In this document: positions 4,860 through 29,450 of the stretch, one piece after another
Layout of the letters: each line of letters opens with the position of its first letter
Numbering within the stretch: position 1 is the first letter of the stretch
Origin: a virus
IMG/VR virus record: IMGVR_UViG_3300007777_000032
Coordinates: 1 to 29,450 of that record
DNA length: 29,450 nt
Direction: 5' to 3' (one strand)
The notes under the pieces: model-generated
Database searches by the model: none
What the model saw: only the letters and a program-made list of their open reading frames with translations
Told to the model about the DNA's origin: nothing
Position numbers and translations under genes: made by a program

Positions 4860-4889
4860 AGTATAAATGAAAACATATGATCGTGTCAA
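4860..4889 (-). promoter_or_regulatory. Sigma70 promoter of the lysis cassette (TTGACA-N18-TATACT)
   Basis: Perfect -35 at 4889-4884 and TATACT at 4865-4860 with an 18-base spacer. The upstream AAAAAAGCTTGACA matches the element at 3449 and 29018. It sits directly after the stop of the gene at 5213-4896. Confidence 0.75.
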
Positions 4890-13097: not shown

Positions 13098-14678
13098 TTA
13101 TATGAACTCGATAAACTTTATTTTTGAACGCTTATGAACTGGACTTTGTATATTCAGGTCAATGTTGCTGTCTACTTTCATTAAATACGCTGTATATGCG
13201 TCAGAATCAGGTTGAAACATAAACCAAATTGGCTGGCGTGTATTATATATGAAATTTCTAAAATTGTCAATGTTTGATGCTGTTGCGTTGTCGATTACGC
13301 TTAATCCAAAGCTCAACTCTAGCCTTTTCCACATAACTGTCTCAAATACCCTTCCATTTTCGCTATTGAATTTCTTAATTCCAGACCTTAATGATTTTGG
13401 GTCTACTCCGTAATCCACATAACCAATTTCAAGGTAATTACCTATAAATATCTCAGGAACCAAAAAATGACTTTGTGAGGTTAGTCCAGATATGAATAAT
13501 CTGTATCTGAAGCTAAGAAAAAAGCTTTCAAGAGTTGTAGCTGTAGAGATATAAAAGTCAATACCATTACTTGCAAAGTCAATAGGCTGGCCTGATGCAG
13601 CGAATGGTATAGTAGACCATGTATCGCCATCATCCTCACTTTTCAACATGTTGCCTGAAATGTCTACAATTACAATCTCTTTATCTGTAACAACAATCGC
13701 CCTTTGGTCATTTATATTAGCTGAAATATCAGTGAATGATGAAAAGTCAACACTTTTAAGAACAGTTCCATCTCTTGCACATGCATAATACGTTCCATCT
13801 TTTGTAATTGAGTCAGAATATATACTTAGTGTTGCAGCAAGAACATTCCAAGTCAACCCGTCATCAAAGCTTGAATATATCTTTGAATCTGTTCTGATTA
13901 TGAATGAGAACTGTATATTGTCTATTGCGTTTATTACAGAGGCAACTGGAAATGGGCTTGTAACTGAGCTGAATGTTATCAAGTCGCTGCTCTGCCAAAT
14001 CTCATTATTGTCACCAACTACCATGAAGCTTTGGAAGTTAGTAGAAACGCCATTAAGGTTTGCAGCAGTCACTGTCTTAGCAGTCCAAGCAGAACCGTCA
14101 AAGTAAGAGAATATACCTGAATTGCCACATAGTACAAACTTATCTTCAAGACCTTTAACATCGTTGTAAGTACCAGCAGGAATTGTTAAATCTTGAGTCC
14201 ATGAGATTCCGTCAGTAGAAGTATAAAAGCCTGTTCCAGCAGAATCTATAGCAGCAAATCTGTCTCCTGTCCAAAAAACTTTCTTAAAGATAGGAGCGCC
14301 TGAAATAGTGTTTACTGCAGTTGACTGTGAAAGTGTATGCACTGGAAGTGAATTAAACATACTCTCATTCTGATGAACGAACGAGCCTGCTTTAATACTT
14401 GAGAACGATATTCCGTCATGAGCATGAAGGTCGAAAGTAAAGTCTATAGTTCTTCCTGACTCGTCATACCTGTGTTCTCCAAAGATTATACTCTGAGCAG
14501 AGCCTGCGTCTACCCTGAAATCGATTGTTGCATTGCCTGCAGCGTCTGCTTGAAGTATAAATCCATTTGCTGTGTCATTGTTGAATACTGAGCTGACATC
14601 GCCAATATCCCTTCCTTTTGTAAGGACTGCAGAATTTATGTGGTTATTGAATGCTACTTTTGGGATATCGATTGCCAT
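13098..14678 (-). CDS. Tail tip-associated protein with galactose-binding-like core and beta-propeller insertion
   Basis: 526 residues. Residues 1-108 and 389-526 (RYRLFISGLTSQSHFLVPEIFIGNYLEI, and WKRLELSFGLS at the end) look like one beta-sandwich tail protein. Residues 112-388 appear to be a propeller inserted into it, with two exact Asp boxes: S270-D272-G274-T276-W277 and S347-D349-G351-T353-W354, plus looser ones near 153-160 and 230-236. First gene after the tape measure and the repeat locus, with its own promoter. Dit- or baseplate-like position. Glycan binding is inferred. Confidence 0.7.
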   Translation of the reverse strand: MAIDIPKVAFNNHINSAVLTKGRDIGDVSSVFNNDTANGFILQADAAGNATIDFRVDAGSAQSIIFGEHRYDESGRTIDFTFDLHAHDGISFSSIKAGSFVHQNESMFNSLPVHTLSQSTAVNTISGAPIFKKVFWTGDRFAAIDSAGTGFYTSTDGISWTQDLTIPAGTYNDVKGLEDKFVLCGNSGIFSYFDGSAWTAKTVTAANLNGVSTNFQSFMVVGDNNEIWQSSDLITFSSVTSPFPVASVINAIDNIQFSFIIRTDSKIYSSFDDGLTWNVLAATLSIYSDSITKDGTYYACARDGTVLKSVDFSSFTDISANINDQRAIVVTDKEIVIVDISGNMLKSEDDGDTWSTIPFAASGQPIDFASNGIDFYISTATTLESFFLSFRYRLFISGLTSQSHFLVPEIFIGNYLEIGYVDYGVDPKSLRSGIKKFNSENGRVFETVMWKRLELSFGLSVIDNATASNIDNFRNFIYNTRQPIWFMFQPDSDAYTAYLMKVDSNIDLNIQSPVHKRSKIKFIEFI

Positions 14679-14705
14679 TTCTTTAATGCCTCTTTATTGC
14701 GTGTA

Positions 14706-14734
14706 AGTATAGCGTTTTTTATGCTATTTGTAAA
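14706..14734 (-). promoter_or_regulatory. Sigma70 promoter of the tail tip genes (TTTACA-N17-TATACT)
   Basis: TTTACA at 14734-14729 and TATACT at 14711-14706, 17 bases apart, with CGC before the -10. GTTAC boxes lie immediately upstream of the -35. It starts the 14678-9567 unit. Confidence 0.75.
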
Positions 14735-14863
14735 GGTGTTACTTTTTTAAAGGTAACAAATTAAAAAAGGTAACAAGAAAGGTAACGCCTGAAACTGTTT
14801 GATACCAACGCTTTACGTCATTTGTTACTTTTTTAACCGGTGTTACTGTAAAAACATAGGCAT

Positions 14864-14871
14864 GGTATAAT
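14864..14871 (+). promoter_or_regulatory. Possible rightward extended -10 promoter (TGgTATAAT)
   Basis: On the plus strand ATGGTATAAT at 14862-14871 has the TGn extension before a perfect -10. There is no good -35. Transcription would run into the 20-base repeats and be antisense to the end of the tape measure gene. It is the only rightward promoter I see. Confidence 0.35.
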
Positions 14872-14904
14872 ATTACAATATTCTTTAAAACATACTGAAT
14901 AGAA

Positions 14905-14970
14905 TCTATTATCCTATCTATTAATCTATTATCCTATCTATTAATCTATTATCCTATCTATTAATCTATT
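14905..14970. repeat. Three perfect 20-base tandem repeats plus a partial fourth
   Basis: TCTATTATCCTATCTATTAA occurs at 14905-14924, 14925-14944 and 14945-14964, followed by TCTATT. There are no intervening spacers. Iteron-like by structure. Confidence 0.95.
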
Positions 14971-15068
14971 TAGTAACATATATATTATAAAAGAGTCTTT
15001 TTTGAGGCTCTGTCTCATATTCAGCCGTTACTTATACGCTACTAAAGTGCAACTTATCCGTTACTAAA

Positions 15069-15105
15069 ATGACTATGTGCTACATAAAAGGTAACACATA
15101 GTCAT
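15069..15105 (-). terminator. Hairpin after the tape measure gene, possible weak terminator
   Basis: ATGACTATGTG (15069-15079) and CACATAGTCAT (15095-15105) are perfectly complementary over 11 bases, with a 15-base loop that holds a GTTACCTTTTA box on the complement. On the transcribed strand it follows the tape measure stop by eight bases and is followed by TTTTAG. The stem is AT-rich and the T-run short, so termination may be partial or regulated. Confidence 0.55.
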
Positions 15106-15113
15106 ATTCAGTA

Positions 15114-17990
15114 TCATACTACAGAGAAGTTCTGGCCGTTATCGAAGCTTTTCTGAAGCACCGGAGCCAACTTGTCACCTATTTGCTGCATAGCAGTTTC
15201 ATCGATAGCACTTGGGTCAAGAGCCTGAACAGTAAGGTTTACCTGCGATCCTGCTTGCTGAGCTGGCTGTGTTGACTCTTGTGTTAGTGAGGGCGATGCA
15301 GGTGTTGGTATTGATGGAGCAGATGCTGCAGACGGTTTTGCGCCCCCTCCAAATTTAGTGGATGCAATCTTAGATATGTTTGCAACACCCATTGCAGTTA
15401 CTACACCCGCCATTATTGGCCCAAGTATTGGCCCAAGACTTAATGCCTGAGTAGCACCCTGAATTGTTGATATTGTTGCATTTGCTATTGCCGCAACTTT
15501 ACCAGCTTCAAACATCTTCCTGTTTCCTGAATCCATCAGTCCAGATATAATTCCAAGGCCAGCCTGTGTTACTGCAACCTTACCTTTGAAACCTGAGTCC
15601 CAAAGCTTTTCGGAATCTTCCATGAAAGAATCAGTCTTTTTTAATAGAGCGCCAAAATTACCAGAAGTTATGTCTTCTTGAAGGGCAGCGAACTCTGATG
15701 CTATGTCAACTCCGCGCTGCCTAAATTCGTTCCTAATGTCCTCTTTTGACTTCTCAAATTCCCTTGTCTTTTCAAGCTCTATTAGGTTGTTTTCCTCTTT
15801 TAGTATCGCATACTCTTCGTCTCTAAGTAGCTGAGCTTCATTGAATACTGAGGTCATCTCAGCCTTTATAGATTCTTTGTTTACCTCATGCTCTGATATA
15901 GATTCAAGCTCTTTATTAAAGTCAGAACGCTTTCTATCCTGAGATAATTTGAAATTCTCATCTTCAATAGCTGTTTTTGTTGCAAAGAAAGCCTTTTGAG
16001 CATTAATTCTCTTGTCTATAGCAGCTAATGAGCCATCATCAACATCTGGAGATGCTTTTTTGAATTCAACTTCAGCCCTTGCTGTTTTTGTTGTCTGCTT
16101 TGTATCTTCTAGCTCCTGCTTCTGAGCCAAGGCAAACTCTTTTATTCTAAGTTGCTTCTGAGCTTCGATTTCGACTTCTCTTTCAGCCTTCTTGACAGCA
16201 GCAGCAACATCAGATGCCAATATAGCTCTTTTTTCAGTTGAAACAACCTTATCGAACTCTATTAATTTATCAGAGCCTTCTTTGTTAAACCTCAAAAGGT
16301 TATCTCTTTCCTTTTTAGCATCGATTGTGAACTTCTGAATTTTTGTCAGCCTGCTTTTTGTTATTCGATCTGTGAAAGCCTTGGATTTGGCATCTGCGTT
16401 TGATACTCCGATATTGAACTTGTCAAATTCAGCATTCAAGTCTGCAAGGCTCATGTTTGCTAACTTGCTTATTTCAATACCAACCGATTTAAGGGCTTCC
16501 TTATCTTGACCTAGCAAGAACGTGCGCTTCTCAAGTGCCTGTACATCATTTAATTTCTTGGTATAATCAACCATAGATGCAGTTATTTTCTTCTGTTCTT
16601 CAGCAGACGCTGTAACAAACTTCCTCAGATTGTCAAGTCCTGCAGCATGCTTCTTAGCTGCAATTGCAGAATCTATCTGCTTCTTTGTAAGATTTTCAAT
16701 ATTTGGTATCGTATTTCTTATTGCATCATCAAGATTTCTTGCGTTTGTCTTGAACAAATTAAATGTTTTTGCTGTCGCTTTGTCAAGTTTTTCAGCGTCT
16801 TTTGCTCCTTGTGAAAATAGAAAATCAAGCGACTCATAAGCTGCTACAGCAGCTATTGTAATCCAACCAATTGGGCCAAGTGCTGCACTTATTCCAATAC
16901 CCATCTTCTTGGCTGATGCTCCTGCTGTAGCCATTGCTACAGACAGCCCTTTTGTAGATGTTGTAGCTGCAACTGTTGATGCCGCCATCTTCTTAAGTGA
17001 TATGTCCTGAAGCCAGAATGACGCTGTGGCAGTCTTGGAGGCTGTAGCACCTGCAACAGTTGCTGCTTCAAGCAGCCCTGTCTGTAACGCAGCAGCTCCT
17101 GTGATTACTTTATAAGCAGCTAGTGCAATTATTATATCTTGAATGTTTGCAGTTACAAAGGTAATAGCCTTTGCAGAGCTAACAAAAACAGCCTGATTAT
17201 TCTGTATTGCCGATGATACATCTTGAATTGCAGGGGTAAGAGCCTGACCGAATGCTGCTGATGTCTCAAATATAACATTATTAACTTTATTGAGGCTACC
17301 CTGAAGCTGACCTGCAGCACTTATTGCTTTTGAGCCATAAAGATTTTCCATCTCCATAGCAAGCTTAGGCAGCAAGTCCTCTGCTGTAACCTTTCCAAGA
17401 GAAAGCATCTTATTAAGTTCAGATGTTGTAAGTTTCATCGCTTTTGCAGATAATGCAAATGCGCCAGGCAAACGCTCTCCGAGTTGCCCCCTAAGCTCCT
17501 CGGCCTGAACCGTTCCTTTACTTACCATCTGCTCTAGTGCTTTTAAGGCACCTTCAGTCTGGTCTGCAGACAAAGAAAGTGCTGAAGCAGCCGCTGCCAT
17601 TCCTTTAAATACAGCAATGGTCTGAGTTCCCTCAAGTGTAGTGCCTTTAGTAGCAGCGGCAAACGAAGCTATACTTCCCGCTGATTTCTCAAGATTAAGC
17701 CCATACCTATTTACAATTCCAGATATTTCTCTGAATGCTTTTGAGGCATCCCTTGTTCCAACTTCAAGCCTACGCATAATCCTGTCATAAGCAAGTGCAG
17801 AATTAACACTTTTATCAAATCCTGCCTTTATTACAGCGAACGAAACAGCAGCACCAGCAAGCCGTTTAAAGCCTGCCGATGCTGAATCAGCTTTCTCATT
17901 TAGTTTTCCGAGCTTGCCATTGATCTGGTCAATATTTAGCTTTAAATCCTTAGCATCGCCGGTAAATTTAACTTCTAGTTGATTTGCCAT
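15114..17990 (-). CDS. Tail tape measure protein
   Basis: 958 residues, the longest gene in the window. The N-terminal 250 residues are the tape-measure core (FKRLAGAAVSFAVIKAGFDKSV, and QMVSKGTVQAEELRGQLGERLPGAF). It continues into hydrophobic segments (about 270-400), a long charged coiled-coil (about 540-760) and a Gly/Ala-rich hydrophobic stretch (about 830-890), ending in a low-complexity tail. It sets tail length and helps DNA entry. It starts six bases after the chaperone frameshift extension, as expected for a siphophage. At roughly 0.15 nm per residue it predicts a tail near 140 nm. Confidence 0.95.
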   Translation of the reverse strand: MANQLEVKFTGDAKDLKLNIDQINGKLGKLNEKADSASAGFKRLAGAAVSFAVIKAGFDKSVNSALAYDRIMRRLEVGTRDASKAFREISGIVNRYGLNLEKSAGSIASFAAATKGTTLEGTQTIAVFKGMAAAASALSLSADQTEGALKALEQMVSKGTVQAEELRGQLGERLPGAFALSAKAMKLTTSELNKMLSLGKVTAEDLLPKLAMEMENLYGSKAISAAGQLQGSLNKVNNVIFETSAAFGQALTPAIQDVSSAIQNNQAVFVSSAKAITFVTANIQDIIIALAAYKVITGAAALQTGLLEAATVAGATASKTATASFWLQDISLKKMAASTVAATTSTKGLSVAMATAGASAKKMGIGISAALGPIGWITIAAVAAYESLDFLFSQGAKDAEKLDKATAKTFNLFKTNARNLDDAIRNTIPNIENLTKKQIDSAIAAKKHAAGLDNLRKFVTASAEEQKKITASMVDYTKKLNDVQALEKRTFLLGQDKEALKSVGIEISKLANMSLADLNAEFDKFNIGVSNADAKSKAFTDRITKSRLTKIQKFTIDAKKERDNLLRFNKEGSDKLIEFDKVVSTEKRAILASDVAAAVKKAEREVEIEAQKQLRIKEFALAQKQELEDTKQTTKTARAEVEFKKASPDVDDGSLAAIDKRINAQKAFFATKTAIEDENFKLSQDRKRSDFNKELESISEHEVNKESIKAEMTSVFNEAQLLRDEEYAILKEENNLIELEKTREFEKSKEDIRNEFRQRGVDIASEFAALQEDITSGNFGALLKKTDSFMEDSEKLWDSGFKGKVAVTQAGLGIISGLMDSGNRKMFEAGKVAAIANATISTIQGATQALSLGPILGPIMAGVVTAMGVANISKIASTKFGGGAKPSAASAPSIPTPASPSLTQESTQPAQQAGSQVNLTVQALDPSAIDETAMQQIGDKLAPVLQKSFDNGQNFSVV

Positions 17991-27966: not shown

Positions 27967-28078
27967 TTGACTCTCCCGCCATTTCTTCTTCAGGCTTTCC
28001 TTTCTTCTTGCCAAAAATCCTGTCGTAATTATTTATATACTCTTTTGATATTGGTTTTTGTTCTTCGCCTCGTGACAT
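27947..28078 (-). CDS. Small 43-residue hydrophilic protein
   Basis: The frame MSRGEEQKPISKEYINNYDRIFGKKKGKPEEEMAGE... ends NSKK. Its ATG overlaps the TAA of the nuclease gene (TAATG). Highly charged, with no membrane segment and no family recognised. Its end overlaps the start region of the 27966 gene, a further sign of tight packing. Confidence 0.6.
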   Translation of the reverse strand: MSRGEEQKPISKEYINNYDRIFGKKKGKPEEEMAGESSVNSKK

Positions 28079-28497
28079 TATAAAATCTCCTTTAAATTAT
28101 CTATTATTATTTGTTCGCTTGTACATGTTAAGCCACATTTTCGCAGCTCTTCATACACCATACCTTCATAAATCTCATCGACAATATCGTTATGATGAAG
28201 GAGGATTTCCTCATTGCCGAACTGGTCAATGCATAATGACAAAGTGAATACATCAACCTTGTCTTTACGCCTTTGCCTTGCCCATATGCGCTGCAGAGGA
28301 CGTAATCCTACCTTAACTATGGTGGTAGGTCGTTTAGGTAGCTTCTTGCATTTAAGCTCAATCCATACAGTTTTACCATTAATGAACAAGCAAAGGTCAG
28401 GTATCCCTTCTGATAAAGAATCCTCAAATCGTTGGAATCTTATGTGGTTTGACTTTAACACCTTTCTTAATCTGTGCCAGAATTTGGATTCATTCAT
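28078..28497 (-). CDS. PD-(D/E)xK nuclease, VRR-NUC-like
   Basis: 139 residues. GIPD (31-34), then WIELK (E47, K49), then LRPLQRIW (Q69, W72) form the motif order of VRR-NUC-type and other small PD-(D/E)xK nucleases. The E26 or E30 upstream helps form the metal site. Role is probably DNA processing or a host- or replication-related cut; a Holliday-junction or resolvase function is possible. It precedes the terminase genes. Confidence 0.8.
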   Translation of the reverse strand: MNESKFWHRLRKVLKSNHIRFQRFEDSLSEGIPDLCLFINGKTVWIELKCKKLPKRPTTIVKVGLRPLQRIWARQRRKDKVDVFTLSLCIDQFGNEEILLHHNDIVDEIYEGMVYEELRKCGLTCTSEQIIIDNLKEIL

Positions 28498-28989: not shown

Positions 28990-29018
28990 ATTATTGCATA
29001 AAGTAATATGCGTGTCAA
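28990..29018 (-). promoter_or_regulatory. Sigma70 promoter (TTGACA-N17-AATAAT)
   Basis: TTGACA at 29018-29013, AATAAT at 28995-28990. The TGA stop of the upstream gene lies within the -35. The 18 bases up to the -35 are identical to those at 3444-3461. It drives the small membrane-protein genes. Confidence 0.72.
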
Positions 29019-29383
29019 GCTTTTTCTTTCACATTATGCAATAAATATCGATTTGCATCAGCAACACATCTACCAACTCTGTAATCATTAAATCCACCAG
29101 CCAATTGATTAGCTCCGTTTTCAACAATCATGCAATACTCTCTGACAATCTCAACAAAGTCAAGCCTTAATTCAAGAGCTTTTGTAATCTTACTTTTGAA
29201 AAACTCCCTATTACTCTTATTAAGTTGGTCAGAAAGCCCTGCCATTTCAGCGTCTCGGTATACCATGCAATACTCAAGAACACTATAATCAATAGGCTCT
29301 TCTGTTGCAATGTCCTCTGTAACCTCCTCTTTTTTAATTATAGCTTCAACTTCACTTTCTGTTCCGTTTATTACGTTTAACAT
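29015..29383 (-). CDS. Unidentified 122-residue protein
   Basis: Not recognised. It has an acidic N-terminal 35 residues (EVEAIIKKEEVTEDIATEEP) then helices with LEYCMVYRDAEMAGLSDQLNKSNREFFKSKITKALEL, and a C-terminal NDYRVGRCVADANRYLL. Start after AAAGGAG. No membrane segment. It lies behind three 19-base repeats that contain GTTACC boxes. Confidence 0.7.
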   Translation of the reverse strand: MLNVINGTESEVEAIIKKEEVTEDIATEEPIDYSVLEYCMVYRDAEMAGLSDQLNKSNREFFKSKITKALELRLDFVEIVREYCMIVENGANQLAGGFNDYRVGRCVADANRYLLHNVKEKA

Positions 29384-29401: not shown

Positions 29402-29450
29402 GTTACCTTTTTTATCGTTTGTTACCTTTTTTATCGTTTGTTACCTTTTT
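29402..29450. repeat. Tandem 19-base repeats containing GTTACC boxes
   Basis: GTTACCTTTTTTATCGTTT occurs at 29402-29420 and 29421-29439, with a truncated third copy running off the window at 29450. The boxes match those in the 14679-15113 locus, but here they lie in the leader of a gene, with AAGGTAAC on the transcribed strand. Confidence 0.9.

Follow-up and report, generated by a model that had tools for sequence, protein, structure and literature searches.

Short repeats in an element-specific sequence characterize the replication origins (rep-ori) of the phage-inducible islands of Staphylococcus and E. coli, known as PICI and SaPI (PMC6092414, PMC7581432), and such iterons are bound by the SaPI Rep helicases and by the SCCmec helicase Cch2 (PMC7581432). 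In the satellite phage P4 (NC_001609), 8-base type 1 repeats, TGTTCACC, are found in both orientations. One set is in crr, which directly follows the alpha gene, and the other in ori, which lies upstream of the late gene sid. Here, we analysed the IMG/VR virus record IMGVR_UViG_3300007777_000032, referred to as the window, which comprises 29,450 bases, displays no end repeats and is probably a fragment. Between its tape measure gene and the next tail gene lies a non-coding gap of 435 bases carrying ten copies of the box GTTAC, in both orientations, around an AT-rich core. We consider that the phage probably starts to replicate its DNA in this gap, which would be an origin of the iteron plus AT-rich type, displaced into the tail operon and bound by an initiator helicase whose gene lies beyond the fragment.

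With three, one and six boxes around the core, the gap reveals the layout of the published PICI and SaPI origins, and its box is likewise specific to the element. Those origins, however, follow immediately 3' of the initiator gene, whereas the gap is flanked by the genes for the tape measure and a tail protein. With P4 it shares repeats in both orientations with AT-rich DNA between them and possibly the arrangement in two separated clusters, one of them in P4 lying upstream of a late gene. Differences are that the box of the window, TGTTACC, deviates by one base from TGTTCACC and is no type 1 repeat, that the P4 clusters are about 5 kb apart and those of the window about 14 kb, if a group of boxes at its right end is counted, and that P4 has its alpha initiator while no alpha homologue is known for the window phage. 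As the element has no initiator gene at its side, we do not classify it among the PICI or P4 origins, though by analogy it would work like one. A literature search for GTTACC/GGTAAC phage sites or VapE origins provided nothing direct.

Box content of the gap and its conservation

The original prediction, made from the sequence alone, had regarded ten GTTAC/GTAAC boxes in 435 bases as far beyond expectation, and the counts bear this out: when the gap was shuffled 2000 times with its dinucleotides kept, the boxes numbered 1.34 on average and at most 6, and ten were never reached. The longer GTTACC occurs four times, with 0.20 expected, a number equalled by none of 2000 such shuffles. Though GTTAC is mildly enriched in the window as a whole (71 found, 37.9 expected), no other 435-base stretch exceeds five; a uniform spread of the boxes, which the prediction had named as speaking against it, was thus not seen. 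An unbiased scan of all 29.45 kb for short repeats in two orientations found the gap as the single place, and the remaining intergenic regions have between zero and two boxes each, except for the last 67 bases of the record. There, three GTTACC boxes, which the original prediction had not listed, are found at 29402-29445 in 19-base direct repeats, GTTACCTTTTTTATCGTTT, upstream of the gene 29015-29383, and the record breaks inside the array.

Only two close relatives, L005 and L009, were present in the collections searched. L005 is a separate contig whose tail protein and terminase are 73% and 89% identical to those of the window, respectively, and its gap also contains ten boxes, in both cases arranged as three, one inside the AT-rich core and six, followed by a sigma-70-like promoter. 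The spacings of the six right-hand boxes (18, 42, 12, 17 and 15) are identical in the two phages, and over the 109 bases of this set all 30 box bases are identical, compared with 52 of the 79 bases outside the boxes. The second outcome named against the prediction, relatives with the same gene order and no boxes, was not encountered either. The predicted inverted pair of the TGTTAC...GGTAACA type above a promoter was recovered as TGTTACC-TTTAAAAA-AGTAACA on the minus strand (boxes 14753-14757 and 14738-14742), just upstream of the promoter TTTACA-17-TATACT.

Two further parts of the prediction fared less well. The three 20-base iterons exist, but they are missing in L005 and L009, so that the flank of the core has probably expanded locally in the window; as a functional part they were rejected. 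The hairpin is stable (z = -6.7), but the box tops its stem rather than lying in the loop, and L005 has no counterpart; it may be a local, weak terminator. Being absent from L005, repeats and hairpin are not central and are probably not working parts of the element, which the GTTACC boxes probably are.

In L009, with a terminase 69% identical to that of the window, the element is found at a different location, directly before the homologue (L009 1129-1632) of a nuclease gene of the window. The core pattern TATATATAT..TAC.AAATAGAT is common to all three phages, whereas the boxes around it have changed. GTTAC is not enriched in L009 (two found, 2.8 expected); instead, CGGTAC occurs ten times (0.3 expected) and GTACC 16 times (1.7 expected, the palindrome GGTACC being counted twice), and none of 500 shuffles reached either number. 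The L009 boxes read ACGGTAC, and even the box inside the core was altered, from GTTAC to GTACT, while GTACC is absent from the gaps of the window and L005. As many sites were altered jointly with the core retained, we infer a trans-acting, sequence-specific DNA-binding protein, of which such a replacement would be the expected mark; it would likewise be expected if initiator and origin co-evolve. The predicted cluster of binding sites is thus well supported by both relatives, with boxes and spacings kept in one and replaced together in the other.

Clusters downstream of vapE

The array pattern GTTACC-N6-GTTACC-N11-GTTACC had matches in 46 contigs. Most of them belong to a single group of GC-rich phages, in which GTTACCACC arrays precede a ParB/methylase gene, and were set aside as not being close relatives. 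In this group (L087-L106, L108-L112 and others), the GTTACCACC arrays are followed by a terminator-like hairpin and then by the ParB-domain/methylase gene, and L102 has a D5_N primase gene about 1.5 kb from its array.

Two unrelated contigs, L107 and L113, displayed dense GTTACC clusters immediately downstream of a gene for a VapE helicase-primase (PF05272, E 4e-74 and 3e-76), and therefore the sequence downstream of vapE was examined in more loci, 18 in total, of which 13 were from named phages or plasmids and five from contigs. The named loci were chosen for taxonomic spread before their sequence was seen, whereas L107 and L113, having been found via their boxes, do not test the hypothesis independently. 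In 15 of the 18 loci, a 6-base word is repeated in both orientations beyond chance (p ~0.005) directly downstream of vapE; controls from the same loci, nine other gaps and 108 random stretches, revealed no such cluster (0/117). The clusters belong to phages or plasmids from several bacterial phyla and consist of lineage-specific boxes of 6-8 bases, usually around an AT-rich tract, with words such as GTTGCA in Paenibacillus phage Logan, CGTTTA in Bacteroides phage Bacuni_F1, GTTACA in the Enterobacter plasmid pE76_003 and GTCAAC in a Clostridioides phage. According to the annotation, vapE is followed by a gap of 245-285 bases, VRR-NUC and a helicase gene, in this order, in SAP8, Logan, Bacuni_F1 and a Corynebacterium plasmid.

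The gap of the window resembles the clusters of SAP8, Logan, Bacuni_F1 and the phage-like plasmids in its short boxes in two orientations, its AT-rich tract and the presence of a VRR-NUC-like gene in the phage. Regarding the VapE-linked phage origin, a grouping proposed in this analysis, it shows the cluster and the AT-rich tract, but the gene directly upstream is the tape measure gene and not vapE; in the vapE phages, the cluster lies between vapE and VRR-NUC, whereas that of the window is placed elsewhere. Own two-orientation clusters around TATATA tracts were also seen in two terminase relatives, L063 (4335-4515, GGAACA) and L015 (4901-5200, CTAACA), the former coming after an open reading frame of 841 amino acids.

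Origin, operator and other explanations

An initiator encoded by the phage beyond the fragment, for which a helicase or helicase-primase that loads itself, like VapE, D5 or P4 alpha, is the most likely candidate, would bind the TGTTACC boxes on either side of the AT-rich core, whose A+T content is up to 90% within 30 bases, and the bound protein would melt the core, from where replication would start. In this lineage, the origin would thereby occupy an unusual place within a late operon, with the tape measure gene on one side and the tail tip genes on the other; boxes also abut the tail tip promoter. The original prediction had left a choice between a switch for tail tip genes and an origin; comparison with the VapE phages, the PICI origins and P4 favours the origin, and a switch stays conceivable in view of the conserved promoter next to the boxes.

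Several observations weigh against an origin. The element is not beside a replication gene as model origins are. Searches of the window and its closest relatives, all of which are fragments, detected no initiator, whether VapE, D5 or another. The GC-skew check proposed with the prediction revealed no switch at the gap, which is uninformative since all genes are on one strand. A strong promoter abuts the boxes, as it would an operator, and there are two relatives only, one of them (L009) with the element elsewhere. A single D5 gene was detected, in the distant terminase relative G014, and the box cluster of that phage (TGTTAG; L015 4901-5200) is about 5 kb away from it, which makes the window not the only case of a detached cluster. 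Attempts to reach further relatives gave chance matches only for similar DNA in named phages, no true relative among prophages or hosts in scans of 84,980 genomes with the tail protein and the core pattern, and no more complete relative via the downstream exonuclease.

The main rival is a transcription switch, since the conserved promoter (TTTACA or TTGACA with a 17-base spacer) begins three bases past the last box, that is, past the conserved inverted pair. A phage or host regulator would use the boxes as operators to repress or activate this promoter and to turn on the tail tip genes late, and the position of the boxes is, as far as sequence tells, compatible with such control; the group at the right end of the record likewise precedes a gene start, and in L009 a TATAAT-like site lies between the boxes and the nuclease gene downstream of them. 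We nevertheless regard this explanation as rather unlikely, because the ten boxes extend over 358 bases and flank an AT-rich core conserved at about 230-300 bases from the promoter, because GTTACC boxes are missing in the other intergenic regions apart from the right end, and because the same layout was found again downstream of VapE genes. Origin and switch are compatible and may coexist. It is a tentative possibility that one cluster, relocated from its initiator gene to the late operon, does two jobs, serving as origin and, with the initiator sitting beside the promoter, coupling tail tip transcription to replication onset, and that it works together with a second cluster close to the right end, like P4 ori and crr.

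Clustered short repeats are typical of packaging and partition sites, and the L009 cluster is situated upstream of the terminase genes. A pac/cos or partition site, recognized by the small terminase or by a protein like ParB, is nonetheless highly improbable here, as the terminase genes of the window and of L005 are more than 10 kb away from the element and a box-flanked AT-rich core would have no obvious use in such a site. Neutral accumulation of repeats, for instance in the relic of a lost gene, would suit the 20-base repeats and hairpin, which differ between relatives, but it is still less credible given boxes and spacings kept exactly amid diverged DNA.

Most environmental phages have, to our knowledge, no identified replication origin. 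If the gap is an origin, the analysis provides a recipe for finding others by sequence, namely a short, lineage-specific box in two orientations, an AT-rich core between its copies and, in many cases, a neighbouring vapE gene. The comparison also suggests that full phages commonly have an origin layout which has been reported as unique to phage-inducible islands. An origin in tail genes beside a late promoter would, if true, make a coupling of replication and late transcription directly testable.

Features of the window and further observations

Table 1. Coordinates of the element, its parts and related genes in the window.
Feature	Position	Strand	Remarks
Whole element: non-coding gap, tape measure to next tail gene	14679..15113	-	gap also in L005 5644-6000
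Left box set, three GTTAC boxes: 15091-15095, 15060-15064, 15027-15031	15027..15095	-	L005 also three, other spacings
AT-rich core enclosing a single box, 14973-14977; putative DNA unwinding element	14950..15026	-	conserved in window, L005, L009
Right box set: 14842-14846, 14824-14828, 14782-14786, 14770-14774, 14753-14757, 14738-14742	14738..14846	-	L005: same six
Sigma-70-like promoter TTTACA-17-TATACT, for tail gene 13098-14678	14706..14734	-	L005 counterpart TTGACA-17-TACAAT, same place
Three 20-base AT-rich direct repeats	14903..14970		not in L005 or L009
Stable hairpin just after tape measure stop codon	15066..15108	-	z = -6.7; missing in L005
Second group of boxes, three GTTACC at 19-base spacing, truncated at the record end	29402..29450	-	
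Tape measure gene, upstream flank	15114..17990	-	phrog_2335 E 2e-48; TMP_3 E 1e-23
Tail protein gene, downstream flank	13098..14678	-	no family match; 73% identical to L005 6001-7581
PD-(D/E)xK (VRR-NUC-like) nuclease gene	28078..28497	-	phrog_2165 E 2e-23; 53% identical to L009 1129-1632

The genes of the window are located on the minus strand in the order terminase, portal, capsid and tail. No open reading frame of at least 60 amino acids was found inside the gap, and the window gave no RNA family matches. The nuclease shows the motif GIPD...WIELK of such enzymes, weakly matches the corresponding VRR-NUC protein from Staphylococcus phage SAP8 and has no Pfam assignment. In L009, a gene for an EcoRI-type adenine methyltransferase (1713-2666; PF13651, E 7e-124) lies between the nuclease and small terminase genes and is not at that place in the window.

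A further common element, CGTTGNTANYAAA, is present inside the box clusters of three phages, at 14798-14810 (minus strand) in the window, where it occurs only once, at 5869-5881 in L005, and at 4864-4876 and 4962-4974 in L015.
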